The notes under the pieces were generated by a model, which saw only the letters and a list, made by a program, of their open reading frames with translations, did no database searches and had not been told where the DNA came from. From assembly GCA_036480375.1 (NCBI GenBank), contig JAZGGI010000016.1, forward strand, positions 1 through 32,681: DNA of 32,681 nt, in the 5' to 3' direction. The position numbers were made by a program, and so were the translations under genes. This document shows, piece after piece, positions 24,128 to 32,681 of the stretch (positions are counted from its first letter, which is position 1; each line of letters opens with the position of its first letter). Source of the stretch: Candidatus Zixiibacteriota bacterium. Lineage in GTDB: Bacteria; Zixibacteria; MSB-5A5; GN15; JAAZOE01.

Positions 24128-25042
24128 ATGCCGGAATTATCTGAAAAATTCAAAGAATGCATAAAACAAGTAGATGAATTTCTCCGGGCAACGGCTCTGG
24201 AAGAAGGATTGTCGCCCAATACAATTGACGCTTACCGACGAGATTTATATGATTTTTTTGGTTTTCACGATGGCAAATATCCGAACGATATAAAAAGAAA
24301 AGATATTTATCAATATATTCATGACTTATATGCCTGCGGAATAAATCCTTCAACGATCAATCGACGCCTTTCGGCAATCAAGAAATTTCTCAAACATTTG
24401 GGGCATACCGAAATTACCGGAGATATTCAGGGGCCTCGTTTGACGAGAAAACTGCCGGTGGTACTATCGGTCAATGAGGTCGAAAAAATACTCGAGGGAG
24501 CCCAGGGCGATAATCCTCTTAAAATCCGCGATAACGCCATTTTGGAAATTCTCTATGCCGGAGGATTAAGGATTTCCGAGCTAATCAATTTGGATCTGTC
24601 GGTATATGTTCCGGAGATATCCTATATCATGGTGACCGGTAAAGGGAATAAGGAGCGTTTGGTTCCTCTGGGTAGTTATGCGGTACAGGCAATCGACCGA
24701 TATATAGATAAATCGAGACCAATATTAGCCCGAAAAGGCGGCGGCAGCAATCGGTTGTTTTTAACCCGATTGGGCCGCGGATTCAGCCGTTCGGGCATGT
24801 GGAAATTGATACGCGGTTATATCATGAAAGCTGGGATAATAAAAGAAGTAACCCCGCATACATTCCGTCATTCCTTCGCGACTCATTTATTGGAAGGCGG
24901 CGCTGATTTGAGGGTCGTTCAGGAATTGCTGGGGCACGCCTCAATAAGCACGACGCAGATATATACTCATCTCAATAAAGAATATCTGTTGGAAATACAT
25001 CGGCAGTTTCATCCCCGGGCAATTTCGAAAGGCCGGCGGTGA
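24128..25042 (+). CDS. xerD: site-specific tyrosine recombinase XerD
   Basis: Resolves chromosome dimers at dif together with XerC. At 304 residues it is the normal Xer size. An N-terminal SAM-like core-binding domain (about 10-95) precedes the catalytic domain with a complete active set: R148 (GGLRISEL), K172 (GKGNKERLVPL), H244 and R247 (PHTFRHSFATHLLEGGADL), H270 (LLGHASISTTQ) and the nucleophile Y279 (IYTHLN). Its stop overlaps the GGDEF gene start. It looks like the housekeeping enzyme and not an island integrase, though it stands about 0.9 kb from the duplicated gene end described below. Confidence 0.93.
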   Translation: MPELSEKFKECIKQVDEFLRATALEEGLSPNTIDAYRRDLYDFFGFHDGKYPNDIKRKDIYQYIHDLYACGINPSTINRRLSAIKKFLKHLGHTEITGDIQGPRLTRKLPVVLSVNEVEKILEGAQGDNPLKIRDNAILEILYAGGLRISELINLDLSVYVPEISYIMVTGKGNKERLVPLGSYAVQAIDRYIDKSRPILARKGGGSNRLFLTRLGRGFSRSGMWKLIRGYIMKAGIIKEVTPHTFRHSFATHLLEGGADLRVVQELLGHASISTTQIYTHLNKEYLLEIHRQFHPRAISKGRR

Positions 25043-25980
25043 TGCTGCATATTGCCAATCATACCCAGGGTAATCAGGCCGAGTTTTTTTTCTCGCGGAT
25101 TATTGAAGGTAAGCAGGTTTCTCTGCATAGATTCAGCACCATTGAAGAACTTTTGACCCTGGCCCAGAGATTTAATCTTGATCTGGCCTTTATGGGTACC
25201 AGCGGATCGGGTAACGGGTCGATTATGCACATTCTTGAGATGAATCGCAGGATTAAGGATCATACCTATCTGGCTATTTTACCAACGGTTTTATATCAGC
25301 CCGAGCCGGAAAATACGACCCTGACGGCAGCATTTGAAAACGGCGCAGATGAGTTCTTTACCGACGCGATACCTCTCAATATCGCCCGGACAAAAACGGT
25401 TATGATTATTCATCGCGCTATACGGGATTTGTCGGTTAATCCGTCGAGCCGTTTGCCCGGCCCGGCCATAATCGAAAAAGAGATTGAATGTCAGATTGAA
25501 CTCGGTCAGCAATTCGCGGTGTGCTACGCCGATCTGGACAATTTTAAGGCCTTCAATGACTATTACGGATATTACTACGGCGACCGAGTAGTTCGCCTGA
25601 CGTCAAGAATTATCAAGGATATTGTTTTTGATTTATGCCGCGAAGGATTCGTCGGGCATATCGGGGGGGATGATTTTATTTTTATTATTCCCGGGGAGTT
25701 GGTGCCCAATATCTGTGAGAATATCCTTCGGACTTTTGATGCATTTATTCCCTTCAGGTATGCCCCCGAAGATCGGGAACGAGGATATATAATTACCAAA
25801 AACCGCGCCGACGAAGAAGAAAAATTCGAGATAATGACGTTATCGATTGCGGTCGTGATAAATAAGGGCAAGATGTTCAAACATGTCGGTGAGCTATCGC
25901 ACATGCTGGCCGATTTGAAGAAATATACCAAATCCCTGAAAGGGTCCAACTACGTCATTGAACGGCGTAAGAAGTATTAG
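25042..25980 (+). CDS. degenerate GGDEF-domain protein with receiver-like N-terminus
   Basis: A 312-residue protein. The first 125 residues look like a diverged receiver domain (LDLAFMGTSGSGNG, GADEFFTDAIP). Then comes a GGDEF domain starting NPSSRLPGPAIIEKEI, with YADLDNFKAFNDYYGYYYGDRVV and the signature GGDDF near 208, where the glutamate of GGDEF is aspartate and the preceding RxG is HIG. Cyclic-di-GMP synthesis may be weak or absent, leaving a sensory or binding role. The ATG at 25042 overlaps the xerD stop; a GTG at 25039 is an alternative. Its last 60 bp are repeated at 26520-26579. Confidence 0.85.
   Translation: MLHIANHTQGNQAEFFFSRIIEGKQVSLHRFSTIEELLTLAQRFNLDLAFMGTSGSGNGSIMHILEMNRRIKDHTYLAILPTVLYQPEPENTTLTAAFENGADEFFTDAIPLNIARTKTVMIIHRAIRDLSVNPSSRLPGPAIIEKEIECQIELGQQFAVCYADLDNFKAFNDYYGYYYGDRVVRLTSRIIKDIVFDLCREGFVGHIGGDDFIFIIPGELVPNICENILRTFDAFIPFRYAPEDRERGYIITKNRADEEEKFEIMTLSIAVVINKGKMFKHVGELSHMLADLKKYTKSLKGSNYVIERRKKY
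25921..25980 (+). repeat. direct repeat copy 1: 3' end of the GGDEF gene
   Basis: The final 19 codons and stop of the GGDEF gene, beginning AAATATACC. Copy 2 lies 599 bp downstream. The similarity starts and stops abruptly, with unrelated sequence on both outer sides. Confidence 0.95.
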
Positions 25981-26047
25981 TGGCCATCAAATAATACCTA
26001 AAATGGTAATAGGAAAGGTTTGACCTTTATCTACATCGGCATTTTGG

Positions 26048-26425
26048 CTAAGAGTGTTGTCCAAACAACAGAATGTAACCATTTACATCTTTAATGGCAA
26101 ACTGCTTAAATGGTGTATTTATTATGGGAACGATAACATCAGTCGTATTTTTGATCCTTTCATAGAGTTTGTCAATATTCACTACTTCAAAATATATGTT
26201 AAATGAACCGCCTATGTTCTTCTTATTTATCTCCGGTATTAATTTCCCAAGACTATCTCTTGATTCAAACATTATATAATTGTCACCGCATTTAAGTTTT
26301 ATCCATTCGGGATTTTCATTTGGGTAAGATGAAATTAGTTCTAAGTTTAATACCTCAGTATAAAACTTTATGGTGCCTGAAATATCCTCAGTAACCAGTT
26401 CCGGGGTCAGACTTTTTATTTCCAT
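26048..26425 (-). CDS. VOC-superfamily protein (glyoxalase/bleomycin-resistance fold)
   Basis: A 125-residue protein with the paired beta-alpha-beta-beta-beta layout of the vicinal-oxygen-chelate fold. The first half is LTPELVTEDISGTIKFYTEVLNL ... YIMFES, and the second NIYFEVVNIDKLYERIKN ... FAIKDVNGYILLFGQ. The final motif DVNGYILLF, normally DPDGNxLEF, has a glycine-tyrosine where the metal-ligand glutamate region is expected, so metal binding is uncertain. Substrate unknown. It has an AAAGGA ribosome site and its own strong promoter. The gene lies between two copies of the GGDEF gene end, on the opposite strand. Confidence 0.85.
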   Translation of the reverse strand: MEIKSLTPELVTEDISGTIKFYTEVLNLELISSYPNENPEWIKLKCGDNYIMFESRDSLGKLIPEINKKNIGGSFNIYFEVVNIDKLYERIKNTTDVIVPIINTPFKQFAIKDVNGYILLFGQHS

Positions 26426-26466
26426 TTGATTGAATCCTTTTAATATTAGTTTTTAAGCCTATTGGC

Positions 26467-26495
26467 ATTTTAGGTTGTTTATGTCGCGTGGTCAA
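26467..26495 (-). promoter_or_regulatory. sigma70-type promoter of the VOC gene
   Basis: On the minus strand TTGACC (26490-26495) is followed by exactly 17 bp and TAAAAT (26467-26472). Transcription would start near 26460, about 35 nt before the VOC ATG. The promoter is inside the segment bounded by the two 60-bp repeats, so that segment is a self-sufficient transcription unit. Confidence 0.7.
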
Positions 26496-26519
26496 ATTCA
26501 AGTATAGTTAAAATCCATT

Positions 26520-26579
26520 AAATATACTAAATCTCTCAAAGGCTCCAACTACGTCATCGAACGGCGTAAGAAGTATTAG
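26520..26579 (+). pseudogene. orphan copy of the GGDEF gene 3' end (direct repeat copy 2)
   Basis: This 60-bp fragment encodes the same last 19 residues and TAG stop as the GGDEF gene at 25921-25980, starting KYTKSLKGSN. It differs at five bases, all third codon positions and all silent. No start or rest of gene precedes it; the upstream 94 bp contain the VOC promoter. Silent-only divergence means both copies were under coding selection until recently. Confidence 0.92.
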
Positions 26580-26640
26580 GGCGAGCGCGTAACCCAAAAA
26601 TTAATATTACGTACCCCACAGCAATGCTGTATAATTTTTG

Positions 26641-27777
26641 TTAATTATCCGTTAACTGATTAAACCAAATGCCAGCACTTCCATTTCTATAAAAAGTAAT
26701 AAAAATATCCAGATCGCCGTCATTGTCGAGATCCTTGATATCACAGCCGTGGCTTTCGAATTGCTCATCCAGTCTAATTCCGGAATCGAAAAACGTCCCT
26801 TTCCCGTCGTTCATCCACACTTGGGCAGGATTATTCACGTTGGTAATGACGAGATCGATATGGCCGTCATTGTTTAAATCCCCAACTCCAATTTTTCCAC
26901 TACCCACCGAAGCCAGCTCTTGTCCCTTGGTTAGTCGACCTGTCCCATCATTATTCAAAATCCCAACAGGGTGGGCACCTAAATCAGTGTAGATCACATC
27001 CATATCTCCATCATTTTCAATATCAGCAAACCAGGTCCAAATATATTGACCGCGCACCAGTTCAGATTCTGGAAGAAATGCATAGCTCTCGAAATTCCCT
27101 TTCATATCGTTCAAATAGACCCGAAATCCTATTTCACCGCTTCGAGCCGTCCGGGCAATATTTCCTCCTTGACTGGTGAGTTCCATTATGCTTTCCCTAA
27201 TTAAGATGTCGACTGCACCGTCTCCGTTCAGGTCACAAAATGCTGCATCCTTTGGAATTGAGGATTCGCCTTTTTCGAATTGGCCGCTTCCGTCATTTAT
27301 CCAATCGAAGTATTGACCGACTCCTGTTTCAATAATAGCATCAAGATCACCGTCATAATCAAGGTCAACGAGCCTTACAAACATTGGGAAGCCCGGCTCA
27401 TTCTCGCCAATATCCCGATCGCCTTTTTCGAATATGCCACTGCCTGTGTTTGAATATATATGACAGTTCTCTCCGTCGGTGGGAGTAGTTATCAAATCTA
27501 TATCGCCGTCCAGATCAATATCGCCACCTACGATTCCATGATGGGTCCTGACTTGCTGAGATTCTATAAAATTGCCTGTCCCGTCATTCAACAAGATCAA
27601 TGACTGGCCATAATTTGATATTACCGCAAGAAACAACCCGGTGCTGTATATGGATTCAAAAGTTTGCGTACTCTTTTTAAACTCCGGAATTGTAATGGTT
27701 GATGATTGCGCGGAAACAACTGCTGTCATAGAGATAATTACCAGCCCAGAAACCAATATTAATCGCATGGCTGTCAT
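26641..27777 (-). CDS. secreted FG-GAP/VCBS-repeat protein
   Basis: A 378-residue exported protein. A Sec signal peptide (MTAMRLILVSGLVIISMTAVVSAQ, likely cleavage after about residue 23) precedes a domain of repeated calcium-binding D-x-D/N-x-D-G loops: DIDLDGDIDL, DLDYDGDLDA, DLNGDGAVDI, DIENDGDMDV, DLNNDGHIDL and DLDNDGDLDI. Interspersed NDGxGxF units are typical of an integrin-alpha-like beta-propeller. No catalytic domain is seen. The ATG at 27777 has GGATGA upstream. It follows the PD40 gene by 18 bp, so the two are probably co-expressed and act outside the cytoplasm. Confidence 0.88.
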   Translation of the reverse strand: MTAMRLILVSGLVIISMTAVVSAQSSTITIPEFKKSTQTFESIYSTGLFLAVISNYGQSLILLNDGTGNFIESQQVRTHHGIVGGDIDLDGDIDLITTPTDGENCHIYSNTGSGIFEKGDRDIGENEPGFPMFVRLVDLDYDGDLDAIIETGVGQYFDWINDGSGQFEKGESSIPKDAAFCDLNGDGAVDILIRESIMELTSQGGNIARTARSGEIGFRVYLNDMKGNFESYAFLPESELVRGQYIWTWFADIENDGDMDVIYTDLGAHPVGILNNDGTGRLTKGQELASVGSGKIGVGDLNNDGHIDLVITNVNNPAQVWMNDGKGTFFDSGIRLDEQFESHGCDIKDLDNDGDLDIFITFYRNGSAGIWFNQLTDN

Positions 27778-27795
27778 TTTTCATCCAATCTATTT

Positions 27796-28713
27796 TTATT
27801 TTGCCGGTCTCAACTCTTCGATGAATGAAGCGTCAACCCAGAAGATATTTACATCGTCTGAAAATCTGGAAAAAAATAAATAATTGTTGTCACGAGAAAC
27901 AAATGCAGCCATTTCATGTGCTGTAGTATTAATATCTGAATTCAACCGGATAGGCTCAGTCCAATTTTCAGTGGAATCTTTGAAGCTAATAAATAAATTC
28001 GCATTTCCATGATCGCTGTATGAATCAAAAATAATATATGATTCATCGGGAGCAATAAACGGATGCGCCGATTCACTTATTTTGTTTATGGGACCTTTAA
28101 GTACTTCCGGAGTTTGATAATGTCCATCAATACATTTTGAAACGCAAAACGCATCGGACCCCGAAAAATATAGATTCCCATTATTTGCCACAGTAACAAA
28201 CATGCAAAATTCAGTATCTAATTCTAATACCTTTAAGTCAATCCATCCACTATCAGTTTTTGTGGCACACCGTTGTTGAAGAATTGCGGTATTGTTTTTT
28301 CCGCTTCCAAATATCAAGCTCTTGCCGTCGGGAGTAATATGTGGTTCAAAATCAAAAAAACCCGCAGAAGGTTTACCGATAAATTCCGCAATACGTGGTT
28401 CTATCCACTTATTATTTTCTTCCCTTGTTGTAAATATCATATTAACGCCCTCTGGCGGGCGGTATGTATAAAAACATTCTTTACCATCGGGAGAGAATGT
28501 TATTGTTAATACCCCTCCATCACTATTCAGTATTCCCGGAGCGAATAGTTCCGGAGTTTTCCCTGGAGGTTTTTGGCCCAGATAAGGACCGGTAAGAATT
28601 GGAAAATTCTCACTTGTGGCCAAGGAATTATCCTGTGATTTAGGATGTGAGACAAAGCATAATACGACGATAAGTGAAATCCCCGTAATCGATAAGATTT
28701 TGAATTTTTGCAT
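27796..28713 (-). CDS. exported PD40/TolB-like beta-propeller protein
   Basis: A 305-residue protein with an N-terminal signal peptide or anchor (KILSITGISLIVVLCFVSHP). The body has WD40-like PD40 repeats: LTITFSPDGKECFYTYRP, EPHITPDGKSLIFGSG, VTVANNGNLYFSGS, HPFIAPDESYIIFDSYSD and AAFVSRDNNYLFFSRFSDD. Such periplasmic or surface propellers usually bind partners; none is known here. A GGGAG site lies 6 bp upstream of the ATG. First gene of a two-gene unit with the FG-GAP protein. Confidence 0.85.
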   Translation of the reverse strand: MQKFKILSITGISLIVVLCFVSHPKSQDNSLATSENFPILTGPYLGQKPPGKTPELFAPGILNSDGGVLTITFSPDGKECFYTYRPPEGVNMIFTTREENNKWIEPRIAEFIGKPSAGFFDFEPHITPDGKSLIFGSGKNNTAILQQRCATKTDSGWIDLKVLELDTEFCMFVTVANNGNLYFSGSDAFCVSKCIDGHYQTPEVLKGPINKISESAHPFIAPDESYIIFDSYSDHGNANLFISFKDSTENWTEPIRLNSDINTTAHEMAAFVSRDNNYLFFSRFSDDVNIFWVDASFIEELRPAK

Positions 28714-28763
28714 TTATAACTCCCAGCGCATTTGGTTGTATGCTTATTGGATTTTGTCTTAAT

Positions 28764-28769
28764 ATTATA
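28764..28769 (-). promoter_or_regulatory. possible -10 element for the PD40/FG-GAP unit
   Basis: A perfect TATAAT on the minus strand about 50 bp before the PD40 start codon. No good -35 lies at 16-18 bp, so this may be an activator-dependent promoter or chance in AT-rich DNA. Confidence 0.3.
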
Positions 28770-28814
28770 TTAATAGACGTAGAAAGATAGCGGGATGTTC
28801 ATCGGAAAATTAAT

Positions 28815-28880
28815 AAAAAAACCAGACACTGGATTTTCTGCAAGTCTTTGCCAAAAATACGGGTTAGTGTCAGGTGTTTT
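28815..28880 (+). repeat. palindromic dispersed repeat, copy A
   Basis: ACCAGACACT (28821-28830) pairs with AGTGTCAGGT (28866-28875) with one mismatch, flanked by an A-run on the left and TTTT on the right. The loop resembles copies B and C (AAGTCTTTG, TACGGGTT). It is the most diverged copy. It continues downstream into a stretch shared with copy B that ends in a tRNA anticodon arm (28901-28918). Confidence 0.75.
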
Positions 28881-28888
28881 CTACTGTT

Positions 28889-28921
28889 AGGACAATTGAA
28901 CGGGCTCATAACCCGAAGGTC
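28889..28921 (+). pseudogene. tRNA-Met(CAU)-derived fragment attached to copy A
   Basis: The 18-bp CGGGCTCATAACCCGAAG (28901-28918) is a tRNA anticodon arm: stem CGGG/CCCG and loop CTCATAA with CAU anticodon. It is followed by GGTC, as in a normal variable loop, and then diverges. The preceding GGACAATTGAA is shared with copy B. There is no acceptor, D or T arm, so it cannot be a working tRNA. Confidence 0.6.
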
Positions 28922-28969
28922 CTATTCTACGTTATTATTGCCCCGATTTAGCGTAAAGCGAATAAGTTG

Positions 28970-29308
28970 CTATACTTCATGTCCGATGGTGAAGATCGCT
29001 GTTGGATCGATATATACGCTCCAGGATCTAACAAAATCTTTGCCCGCATCGGTCCCGAGAAAACTTAGCATCGCATCCAAATCAGATACTTCAATTTTGG
29101 CAACATAAAGGTAGGGTGGTTCTGCAGGCAATTCTCCCTCTGGTTCGGAAACAGCAGGGCCAAGAACCTTATCTATCTTCCAGGTTTTAAAATCTGTACA
29201 CCAAGGGGCACCCCTCACCCCTGGAATTTTTGTTTGGATGAGATAGCTATCGTATTCCTCAGCCTTTTGGTTCTCTTTCAGATTGTAAACTGCAAAAAGA
29301 GTTGGCAT
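28970..29308 (-). CDS. small dimeric alpha/beta-barrel protein, HapK (REDY)-like
   Basis: A 112-residue protein beginning MPTLFAVYNLKENQKAEEYDSYLIQTKIPGVR. The opening strand, YDSY helix and PxVR turn, a central DFKTWKIDKVLG and the ending FVRSWSVYIDPTAIFTIGHEV resemble the REDY-like HapK family of ferredoxin-like dimers, where some members sit in pyrrole-antibiotic clusters. No such cluster is here, so function is unknown. A clear GGAGG lies 7 bp before the ATG. The gene lies alone between repeat copies A and B, on the strand opposite to the tRNA fragments. Confidence 0.7.
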   Translation of the reverse strand: MPTLFAVYNLKENQKAEEYDSYLIQTKIPGVRGAPWCTDFKTWKIDKVLGPAVSEPEGELPAEPPYLYVAKIEVSDLDAMLSFLGTDAGKDFVRSWSVYIDPTAIFTIGHEV

Positions 29309-29462
29309 ATTTACGCCTCCTTTTTATCAATTAATTTATGATGATTAGCATTTATCTAGAGAGCCGTATTGCTTCTAACATAATACTATCCGACGCTTTT
29401 TCCCAGCAATTTATTCTACTAAAGAGTCAATATCAACAAGAAAAGAATCAAAAGAAAAGCTG

Positions 29463-29555
29463 ACAGAATTTACCAAAAAGCAGAAAAATAAAAAACACCA
29501 GACACTAAAAATTTCGTAAGTTGTTGCTATTACTACAGGTTAGTGTCTGGTACTC
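29463..29555 (+). repeat. palindromic dispersed repeat, copy B
   Basis: ACCAGACACTA (29497-29507) pairs perfectly with TAGTGTCTGGT (29541-29551). The loop contains CGTAAGT, ATTACTACAGGTTAG. Upstream similarity to copy C extends left to ACAGAATT (29463-29470). Where copy C has a G-C pair closing the stem, copy B has A-T, a compensatory change. Confidence 0.85.
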
Positions 29556-29576
29556 TCCGTTGTCTGGACAATTGAA

Positions 29577-29642
29577 ACGGGCTCATAACCCGAAGCACCT
29601 TCAAGGTGGTTGTCGCAGGTTCAAATCCTGCCCCGGCTACCA
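29577..29642 (+). pseudogene. tRNA-Met(CAU) 3' portion, 5' half missing
   Basis: From the anticodon arm onward this looks like a tRNA: CGGG-CTCATAA-CCCG (anticodon CAU at 29584-29586), T arm GCAGG-TTCAAAT-CCTGC (29615-29631), then CCCGGCT, discriminator A and encoded CCA (29640-29642). The matching 5' acceptor strand AGCCGGG and a D arm are absent; the repeat element stands there instead. The variable region is 21 bases instead of about 5, as if 16 bases (CACCTTCAAGGTGGTT) were inserted into AG/GTC. Probably a dead remnant, for example one side of an insertion into a tRNA gene. Confidence 0.7.
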
Positions 29643-29764
29643 AATACTTACACCACAATGCCTTGCGGGATTAATGTGGATAATAGAAGTCCACCGCATA
29701 TTGACATTCTGACAGAATTATCAGAGTATGGTTTTAGAATAAAGAATCGTAGGTGAATCGGCTG

Positions 29765-32041
29765 TCAAACCATGACCTTTGCTTGCCTATCCAATTCTTC
29801 TCTGACTGCCACCGCGATGGCTTTCTTTGTTAAGGGCTTCTTAACGAAGGCTCCGATACCCAGCGCTTGCGCCTCCCGAACTCTATCGCTCTCTGAAAAC
29901 CCTGAAACAATGATGGCCTTCTGATTTGGATTGATGTCTAATATTCGCCGATATGTTTCAGTCCCATCCATGCCCGGGGGCATGACCATATCGAGAATCA
30001 GGAGATCCTGGGGATTCTCTCTCAGAAACTTAATAGCCTTCTCTCCACTCTCAACGGCACTAGTCTCGTACCCCAGCTTCTTCAGGAGGTTCGTGGATAC
30101 ATTCCGTTGCACTTCATCATCATCGATTACCAAGACTGTTTCATTTCCGCCAATCGACTCGTAGGAAGGTTTTTCATCCAGCGAGCCGCGAGTGATTGGA
30201 AAATAGACGTAAAACGATGTTCCCTTGCCAAGCTTGGTCTCTAAGTCCAAGTATCCTCCGTGGTCCTTGACGACCGCATCGACAACACTCAAGCCGAGGC
30301 CGGAACCGCATTTCTTGTCGGCAGACTTGGTTGAAAAGAAAGGATCAAGGATCTTCTGGATTATATCATCCGGAATACCACAGCCGTTGTCGGAAACAGT
30401 GAGTTTGACATATTCCCCCCTGGGAACTCGATCAAACGCAACCGAGGTATCATCAGCATAGTAGTTTTCAGTCTTGATAGTAACTTGCCCAATATTCTGC
30501 ATTGCATCCTGGGCATTCACCAGCAGATTGGTCAGCATGCGATGAATCTGTGCGGATCCACCCTTGATTTTCATAAGGTCATCGCAAAGATCCGTCTTGA
30601 CCGTCACGGTTTTTATCCGTGATTGGATATCCAGTGCCGTCTGCAACACAACTCGGTTTAGATCGATTACTTCCTGATTATAATGGCCGCGTCGCCCCAT
30701 GGTCAGCAGATCCTGGCTGATTTCGGAGATCTTCTTTGCGGCTTCTTCGATACTATCAAGATACGCATGGGCCTTGTGGTCGCGCGGAAACTCATCGCGA
30801 ATGAATTCGGGGTAGGCCATTATCGGCGCCAGGAGATTATTGAAGTCGTGAGCCACTTGCCCGGCAATCGTACCCGCCAATTCAAGTCGAGCCGCACGCG
30901 CCTCCAACTCCTGCAAACGCTTGGTTTCGCTGATGTCCGTACAAAACGCCATGAACCGGTTTTCAGAAAGGGCCACAGCATCCAGCGAAGTCCAAGCAAT
31001 GGATCCGTCTTTGCATTTAAGTCTGAATTCGGTCTTAGCGATACCTCTTTTTCTCAAGTTTTCAAAACTCTCCAAAGCCTCATTATATGTCTCGGGATCA
31101 ATGATATCAGATATGGCCATGTTGGTGAGTTCTGGTTCTGAATAGCCGGTCAGGTCACATGCTGCCTGGTTGACCTCAACATAGTGTCCCTTGGCATCGG
31201 CAATAAATATTCCATCCGGAGCACTGGAAATATATGTCCTGAACTTCGCTTCGCTATCACGGAGCGCCTCCTCCGCCCGATTACGTTCGCGCACACGGCC
31301 CCGGATGTTGCGGGCGCCGATGGCCAGCGCCGCAAGGCCAAGCAACCAGAGCAGCCCCAGAGCAAGAGTGTGCTCCACGAGCTCGTCATGCGCTGCCGCG
31401 TAGTAGGCTCCCGCCGGGATCGATACGCCAAAACCGCCACGCACGTCGCCCTCCTTGTAGCCCTGGTGCCCGTGGCATTTCAGGCATGTTGTTTTCACTA
31501 TCACCGGGCGCATCAGGCGCAAGTATGGCTTGCCGTCGATCTCGGTAAACTCGTTGACTTCTGTATTACCGCGGTCAAAGGACTCGAGCGCCGTTCGCTC
31601 CCACTCGTCAGGAGCGTTCTTGGGACGCAGCGGCTTCAGGCTGGTGAGGTGACCCATGGCGCCGTACTGTTCTTCATAATCTTCCATCGTCTGGCGGATC
31701 ATGTACGCCGGGTTCATCAGTGTTAGTTTCTTACCCTCTGTTGTTACGATGTCACGGTCGGGTATGTGCGAGAGATAAGGATTAGGCAGTGTGTGGTCCG
31801 TTGGTGGTACGTAGACGCCACCGTGTGCGGCTCCCCAGTAGCGGAAGGCCTGGTCTTTTAAGAAATGAGTACGGGCCTCGTTTCGGACGAGCTCGCGCGT
31901 CTTTTGCATCTCGTGCAGTGCAATCCAAAGGGCCAGAGAGATTACGAGCAGTGTCCACGCCGCCGCCAGTAGCACGGCGTATTTCGCCACGGCCAACGGA
32001 TGATTCCGGTCTTTGCCCGGTTCACTCCTGACGTGCCTCAT
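29765..32041 (-). CDS. hybrid histidine kinase with DUF3365 (CxxCH) sensor, PAS and receiver domains
   Basis: A 758-residue membrane sensor kinase. A membrane segment (about 20-42) is followed by a periplasmic DUF3365/Tll0287-like domain containing CLKCH (C186, C189, H190), a c-type haem attachment motif. A second membrane segment (about 225-245), a PAS domain (about 262-380, SAPDGIFIADAKGHYVEVN), a HisKA domain with H398 (GQVAHDFNNLL), a HATPase domain (N box NLLVNAQDAM, DNGCGIP, GSGLGLS) and a C-terminal receiver with phospho-acceptor D684 (LLILDMVMPPGMDG) follow. It probably senses redox state or a gas through haem. No separate regulator is adjacent. The N-terminal third is visibly GC-richer than its surroundings, suggesting transfer. 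The start site is only moderately supported. Confidence 0.92.
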   Translation of the reverse strand: MRHVRSEPGKDRNHPLAVAKYAVLLAAAWTLLVISLALWIALHEMQKTRELVRNEARTHFLKDQAFRYWGAAHGGVYVPPTDHTLPNPYLSHIPDRDIVTTEGKKLTLMNPAYMIRQTMEDYEEQYGAMGHLTSLKPLRPKNAPDEWERTALESFDRGNTEVNEFTEIDGKPYLRLMRPVIVKTTCLKCHGHQGYKEGDVRGGFGVSIPAGAYYAAAHDELVEHTLALGLLWLLGLAALAIGARNIRGRVRERNRAEEALRDSEAKFRTYISSAPDGIFIADAKGHYVEVNQAACDLTGYSEPELTNMAISDIIDPETYNEALESFENLRKRGIAKTEFRLKCKDGSIAWTSLDAVALSENRFMAFCTDISETKRLQELEARAARLELAGTIAGQVAHDFNNLLAPIMAYPEFIRDEFPRDHKAHAYLDSIEEAAKKISEISQDLLTMGRRGHYNQEVIDLNRVVLQTALDIQSRIKTVTVKTDLCDDLMKIKGGSAQIHRMLTNLLVNAQDAMQNIGQVTIKTENYYADDTSVAFDRVPRGEYVKLTVSDNGCGIPDDIIQKILDPFFSTKSADKKCGSGLGLSVVDAVVKDHGGYLDLETKLGKGTSFYVYFPITRGSLDEKPSYESIGGNETVLVIDDDEVQRNVSTNLLKKLGYETSAVESGEKAIKFLRENPQDLLILDMVMPPGMDGTETYRRILDINPNQKAIIVSGFSESDRVREAQALGIGAFVKKPLTKKAIAVAVREELDRQAKVMV

Positions 32042-32315
32042 ACCTGTTCAGTACCTCATATACTGCAATTCACGGATTCTTCCACGCGCTCTTTCTTTGG
32101 TCTTTATCATCAATCATGGGCGGTCTCAAGTCAACTTTACCACTCACAACGACGTTACAGCCTATGGAATAATCCCCCCTATAATATCGGCAGATTGTTT
32201 ATAAATGTTAACGGTAAGCTACAGAAGGATACCAGACTATCATCTCCATCATTATCGATTTTAGCATATACCTCTTTCTAATATATTTCAACAGAATTGG
32301 CCAAAGTAGAATATA
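32042..32315. other. non-coding stretch upstream of the histidine kinase
   Basis: AT-leaning sequence without a convincing gene on either strand. On the minus strand a TTGACT (32129-32134) about 90 bp before the kinase start is a possible -35, but no good -10 is at standard spacing. The last 25 bases (from ACAGAATT, 32291) belong to the upstream extension of repeat copy C. Confidence 0.5.
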
Positions 32316-32386
32316 AAAAAAACACCAGACACTGTGCTTCCCGTAAGTCTTTGATATTATTACAGGTCAGTGTCTGGTGTTTTTTT
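32316..32386. repeat. palindromic dispersed repeat, copy C, with perfect 19-bp inverted repeats
   Basis: AAAAAAACACCAGACACTG (32316-32334) is the exact reverse complement of 32368-32386, around a 33-base loop with an inner GTAA/TTAC pair (32343-32346, 32360-32363). A-run on one side and T-run on the other make it a bidirectional terminator in form. It lies 20 bp after the stop of the OPT-like gene and upstream of the kinase gene. Unlike copies A and B it has no tRNA fragment on its right. Confidence 0.9.
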
Positions 32387-32406
32387 CAATTTGTGCATCT
32401 AATTAA

Positions 32407-32681
32407 TCAGGCTTTTTTCCCTCCGAATGAGCGGGCAACCAAAAACAATACAGTTGCAAGTCCAAGAACCATTATGAGCGAAATCGGTTCGCCCCAGGTC
32501 CCGGTCATAAATGATAATGCAGTATATTCTTCGGTGAATGCTTTGAAAGAGGGAATTCCCGCAATCAAACCGGCCGAGAGTACGCCGATAAGGCCGCCTC
32601 CCGCGACAAGGCCGGAGCCGAATAATTGAATAATCCCGGTTAGAAAAATAAAGGCCATCTCAAATAAATGGGATGGCCCCA
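32407..32681 (-). CDS. C-terminal part of a probable OPT-family transporter (runs off the window)
   Basis: The frame is open to the right edge, so only the last 91 or so residues are seen. They contain two hydrophobic segments, FLTGIIQLFGSGLVAGGGLIGVLSAGLIAG and PISLIMVLGLATVLFLVA, and end FGGKKA. The glycine-rich SGLVAGGGLIGVL resembles the SGLIAGEGLxGVL motif near the end of prokaryotic oligopeptide transporters. Family identity is tentative because most of the gene is missing. Copy C of the palindromic repeat lies just after its stop and could end its transcript. Confidence 0.55.
   Translation of the reverse strand, partial: GPSHLFEMAFIFLTGIIQLFGSGLVAGGGLIGVLSAGLIAGIPSFKAFTEEYTALSFMTGTWGEPISLIMVLGLATVLFLVARSFGGKKA

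Follow-up and report, generated by a model that had tools for sequence, protein, structure and literature searches.

A second 3' end of a GGDEF-domain gene beyond a single VOC gene in a Zixibacteria genome, and similar layouts at other genes

The GGDEF gene, its second 3' end and the sequence between

We analysed a stretch of 32,681 nucleotides from a Zixibacteria genome (referred to as the window), in which a GGDEF-domain gene has its 3' end twice, on either side of a VOC/glyoxalase-fold gene (Table 1). The in-gene end (copy A) and the orphan end (copy B) form a direct repeat with 55 of 60 bp identical (92%) and a longest identical run of 21 bp, and the E-value of the repeat was about 1e-15 to 1e-17 within the 223-kb contig. 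The mismatches lie at repeat positions 9, 15, 18, 24 and 39; all five are silent third positions, and the chance of five out of five falling there is 0.003. The similarity sets in sharply at 26520 and ends after the TAG, and a genome search revealed no copy of the GGDEF end beyond these two. Two constrained alleles of one GGDEF end flank a foreign gene, and the original prediction, made from the letters alone, had the coordinates, the silent differences and the extent of the repeat exactly right.

Table 1. Features of the doubled GGDEF and OPT gene ends in the window
Feature	Location	Strand	Basis or remark
GGDEF-domain gene (target gene), directly 3' of xerD	25039..25980	+	PF00990, E 3.9e-11; xerD-GGDEF order kept in relatives
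Copy A, in-gene GGDEF 3' end, 19 codons and TAG	25921..25980	+	Repeat search, alignment
Copy B, orphan second GGDEF 3' end, synonymous differences only	26520..26579	+	Repeat search, alignment
Insert, 539 bp, 32% GC	25981..26519		VOC gene missing in 57/60 genomes
VOC/glyoxalase-fold gene (cargo), complete, 125 aa	26048..26425	-	Pfam PF00903, E 2.3e-7
Imperfect inverted repeat, left arm, near insert end	25996..26013	+	Repeat search
Imperfect inverted repeat, right arm, near insert end	26458..26475	-	Repeat search
OPT transporter orphan 3' end, family-like, read as displaced native end	32407..32589	-	66-77% identity to G001-G004 ends vs 45-56% for in-gene end
Short insert between orphan OPT end and OPT gene	32590..32681		OPT stop at 32705, just outside window

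The GC content of the insert was lower than that of the contig (43%), and the VOC gene, complete and in opposite orientation as predicted, was the only ORF found in 25981-26519 by the ORF list and the profile search. VOC gene matches were detected in three of 60 genomes, namely the window's own, G016 (35%) and G053 (31%), and VOC relatives on plasmids and phages showed about 28% identity at best, or none were found. The low GC content and the rarity of the gene uphold the claim that a single foreign gene was inserted at the 3' end of a gene. No integrase gene was detected in the interval by ORF and Pfam searches, in line with the prediction that no recombinase lies inside. Additionally, no RNA families were found between copies A and B, and no GGDEF end was found on viral contigs. 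The promoter predicted for the VOC gene is plausible: a TTGACC-17-TAAAAT match does lie 5' of the gene (26495-26467, minus strand), but such matches were no more frequent than in shuffles.

The arms of the inverted repeat, which the original prediction had not noted, matched at 16 of 18 positions (shuffle p of about 0.007, one of 22 such tests) and lie near, not at, the very ends of the insert. An inverted repeat near both insert ends is what transposition with target-site duplication could leave behind, but 60 bp is too long for such a duplication, the copies differ in a coding-constrained way, there is no transposase, and a genome search revealed the insert in single copy. We therefore consider transposition extremely unlikely.

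The locus in relatives and the OPT gene at the right edge

The locus was compared among Zixibacteria, with five genomes of the same family (G001-G004 and G006), all from other genera. In G001-G004, xerD and the GGDEF gene were followed directly by a convergent PMT_2/TPR gene and then by the OPT transporter gene; the contig of G006 ended at the GGDEF gene. From GGDEF to OPT, the window's genome carries the VOC gene, copy B, an FG-GAP protein, a PD40 protein, a small ORF and a histidine kinase. The PMT_2/TPR gene of the same-family relatives is missing from 25981-32400, with no close copy elsewhere in the genome (best match 28%). It is the ancestral downstream neighbour of the GGDEF gene and has been lost in the window's genome.

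None of the five same-family relatives had a second GGDEF end or a VOC gene at the locus. Among 132 genomes of the phylum searched, 111 of which gave a hit, no other orphan GGDEF end was found behind a GGDEF gene; the arrangement is thus not conserved across the phylum, and a full second GGDEF gene was likewise absent from the relatives. The original prediction had also expected relatives with the GGDEF gene joined directly to the sequence after 26579, but no relative showed this arrangement, and G001-G004 have the PMT_2/TPR gene at that place. Relatives lack the VOC gene and the second end, but their downstream flank also differs, and there is no clean empty site because the relatives include no genome of the same genus. 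Over the 60 bp compared, copies A and B were equally close to the relatives, and the native GGDEF end was not told apart. Two candidates were rejected: a second GGDEF-end match in G051 was a 141-aa C-terminal fragment (L049:8400-8860), 330 kb from the complete gene and adjoining an N-masked stretch, and a short GGDEF match in G047 was a contig edge.

These comparisons also bear on a tandem GGDEF duplicate that decayed, with the VOC gene inserted into its remains. Such a duplicate would account for the stop codon common to both copies, but the similarity starts sharply, the differences are silent only, no other GGDEF remnant was found and no relative has a duplicate, making this origin very unlikely.

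The two genes bounding this region, GGDEF and OPT, both have a doubled 3' end. The OPT gene, which runs on to 34699 in contig C16, is separated from its orphan end by an insert of only about 115 bp. Its last 66 in-gene residues showed 45-56% identity to same-family relatives, compared to 80-82% for the rest of the gene, and the orphan end was closer to the family than the in-gene end (Table 1). Because of these identities, we read the orphan as the displaced native end and the OPT gene as carrying a foreign end. By analogy, the GGDEF case may have worked in the same way, and the predicted end displacement finds support in such analogous loci, most clearly in OPT. The same region holds three intergenic repeats (28811-28923, 29463-29600 and 32291-32383) that are 75-78% alike, contain the inverted repeat CCAGACACT...AGTGTCTGG and are possibly REP-like; the histidine kinase gene lies between two of them.

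Doubled ends at other genes and their polarity

We compared 1.43 Mb of the window's genome (about 40%) with itself, looking for direct repeats in which one copy belongs to a gene and the other is an orphan. This search was designed after the GGDEF case was known and its thresholds were chosen by the investigator, so its counts are descriptive and carry no formal test. At least five other protein genes had an orphan 3' end beyond an insert. The repeat of a FeoB-associated Cys-rich gene (132 bp, 75%) encloses a GNAT gene, that of the endonuclease III gene nth (129 bp, 95%) encloses 560 bp, that of a CxxCxxCC-domain gene (85 bp, 82%) an AAA gene, and that of an ABC ATPase (52 bp, 85%) a LysE gene; at MtaB, the repeat (57 bp, 75%) finishes a few codons before the stop codon and encloses a 743-aa gene. 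Three relatives had one case each, at a helicase in G001, at an SLC13 transporter in G002 and at nth in G003, the last around a 1219-aa gene. The same layout thus recurs at other genes, although several of the cases are short and were seen only once. The scar is not the single curiosity it was first taken for. Repeats of dockerin and T9SS-like C-terminal domains in neighbouring large surface proteins were set aside as false positives; adjoining dockerin-type genes at L036:10286-11700 (C16:94286-95700) have a common 329-bp 3' end (87%), which was read as a shared domain and not counted.

The orphan ends measured about 50 to 200 bp, and the target genes were diverse, with no common motif by eye. 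The SLC13 copies were identical over 96 bp and differed only at the end, and a mosaic of identical and then diverged sequence was seen at both SLC13 and nth. The SLC13 orphan reads WAK, matching DWAK in the G000 homologue. For the direction of the native end, SLC13 agreed with OPT by its last residues and nth and the ABC ATPase agreed weakly; the FeoB-associated case ran in the opposite direction, with the in-gene end more native-like, or has decayed. No recombinase gene was present in any protein-gene insert examined, no ends or arm repeats were shared among the inserts, a clear inverted repeat occurred only in the VOC insert, and no attC-like consensus was seen by eye in the insert flanks.

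The recurrence also weighs on a metagenome assembly or strain-mixing artefact. The genome is a draft in 50 contigs that, like its named relatives, seems to be a metagenome bin, which would allow for such an error. However, a misjoin would need to link the insert at 26520 to the interior of another allele with no sequence in common, copies A and B have only a short identical run, and the scar is present in four separate genomes. An artefact is accordingly rated as highly improbable.

Similar layouts were found at RNA genes of the window's genome. Two tRNA-Ser genes and the tmRNA gene had orphan 3' ends of 15, 16 and 21 nt, located 0.08 to 2 kb downstream, and one tRNA-Ser interval held a single ORF. 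Orphan 3' ends downstream of RNA genes are the classic trace of integrase-type islands (PMC4383910). At the two tRNA-Ser loci (L216:5618-6855 and L220:16370-16550, both C33), the orphan ends are preceded by a common AGTTCTATATGT stretch, and they are remnants of integration at tRNA-Ser. At the tmRNA gene (L228:6423-8748, C42), the orphan end lies 2 kb downstream, and a hydrolase-like gene in between is split into two ORFs. The whole genome gave only eight tyrosine recombinase matches, two of them fragments.

A protein-level scan of 987 genes returned eight gene-end orphans downstream, two of which resemble shared domains in larger families, and two gene-start orphans upstream, which were thus almost absent by comparison. 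The remaining combinations (two ends upstream and four starts downstream) came mainly from one kinase cluster. At the nucleotide level, no gene-end orphans were found in 0.25 Mb from other Zixibacteria families, and none in 0.80 Mb of other phyla, the latter being weak evidence because most of that sequence is in short pieces. Because protein-level controls in other phyla were noisy for gene starts, we relied on the nucleotide-level pairs. Islander counts 3760 islands that have a 3' fragment against 159 that have a 5' one (PMC4383910), and the 3' polarity of the protein-gene orphans resembles that of tRNA islands.

Possible routes of insertion and known systems

We conclude that the GGDEF locus probably arose by an end-displacing insertion of short foreign DNA carrying the gene end of a related lineage, a judgement that concerns the insertion itself and neither enzyme. 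The incoming DNA would have carried the VOC gene together with a GGDEF 3' end from a related lineage, and would have recombined with the resident gene inside its last 19 codons. One end would then have replaced the other in frame, so that the GGDEF gene stayed whole, and the second end would have been left as an orphan 539 bp downstream. This order of events is our inference. Campbell-type recombination at the gene end is very probable, the geometry being better settled than the enzyme, and the two candidate routes, integrase-type and one-sided homologous recombination, are nearly equally likely. The recurrence of the scar suggests a route by which short DNA is repeatedly added at gene ends while the gene itself stays intact.

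The first route, which we hold tentatively as a real possibility, is site-specific insertion of the integrase type (attP x attB), with copies A and B as attL and attR of a minimal island and the recombinase acting in trans or lost. The tRNA-like 3' polarity, the occurrence of this layout at the tRNA-Ser and tmRNA genes of the genome, the shortness of the orphan ends, the preservation of the displaced end and the inverted repeat near both VOC insert ends are consistent with it. However, the protein-gene inserts have no recombinase, common ends or arm repeats, the genome has few tyrosine recombinase matches, many different genes are targeted, the OPT insert is very short, and the SLC13 copies diverge only at the end.

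The second route, possible to much the same degree, is one-sided homologous recombination (homology-facilitated illegitimate recombination or template switching), in which incoming related DNA would pair by RecA-type homology with the gene end, while its other end would be joined illegitimately just upstream in the resident gene. At the GGDEF locus, one junction falls in a homologous gene end, and the other, at 26520, is a sharp join of unrelated sequences. Ends from related lineages, the free variation of target genes and cargo, the mosaic at SLC13 and nth and inserts without recombinase or shared arms argue for this route. It has been put forward to explain displaced effector ends and orphan arrays at Vibrio T6SS and Rhs loci (PMC5361080), as well as small variable segments in E. 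coli (PMC2884548). On the other side, gene-start counterparts and long orphan ends would be expected and are nearly absent, and the reaction is reported to be rare, usually with loss of resident DNA.

Compared with IS elements and MITEs, the VOC insert has one imperfect inverted repeat that is not at its very ends, and it is single-copy. Integron gene cassettes and Xer (dif) modules likewise move small single genes, of the VOC and GNAT type, without a recombinase of their own; the scars described here differ in that no common recombination site was seen and each scar is the end of a different gene. A dedicated, trans-acting system in this Zixibacteria family that inserts gene-sized DNA at many protein-gene 3' ends, each insert bringing a compatible target end, would amount to a cassette system whose sites are ordinary gene ends; we consider it rather unlikely. 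In T6SS immunity arrays and Rhs loci, a new end also comes with new DNA and the old end is pushed downstream as an orphan (PMC5361080), but the scars here involve conserved housekeeping genes rather than polymorphic toxins, carry unrelated single-gene cargo and keep the resident end in full.

Small bacterial gene gains usually leave no trace of their route, whereas a synonymous gene end that has been displaced shows where the DNA entered, in which direction and roughly how distant the donor was, even for one-gene events. A similar layout is known from Islander-type islands, formed by a tyrosine integrase at the 3' ends of tRNA, tmRNA or protein genes, which share the complete target gene, the displaced 3' fragment downstream in direct orientation, the foreign DNA between the two and the strong 3' bias (PMC4383910). 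The GGDEF locus differs from them in having no integrase inside, an insert of 539 bp and a protein-gene end as target. Islander rejects candidates below 2 kb or without an integrase, and such events would escape island finders which, like Islander, require an integrase and a length of 2 kb or more. If the scar is common, one-gene transfer could be searched for by this signature, and insertions of the integrase type could be distinguished from those of the homology type.
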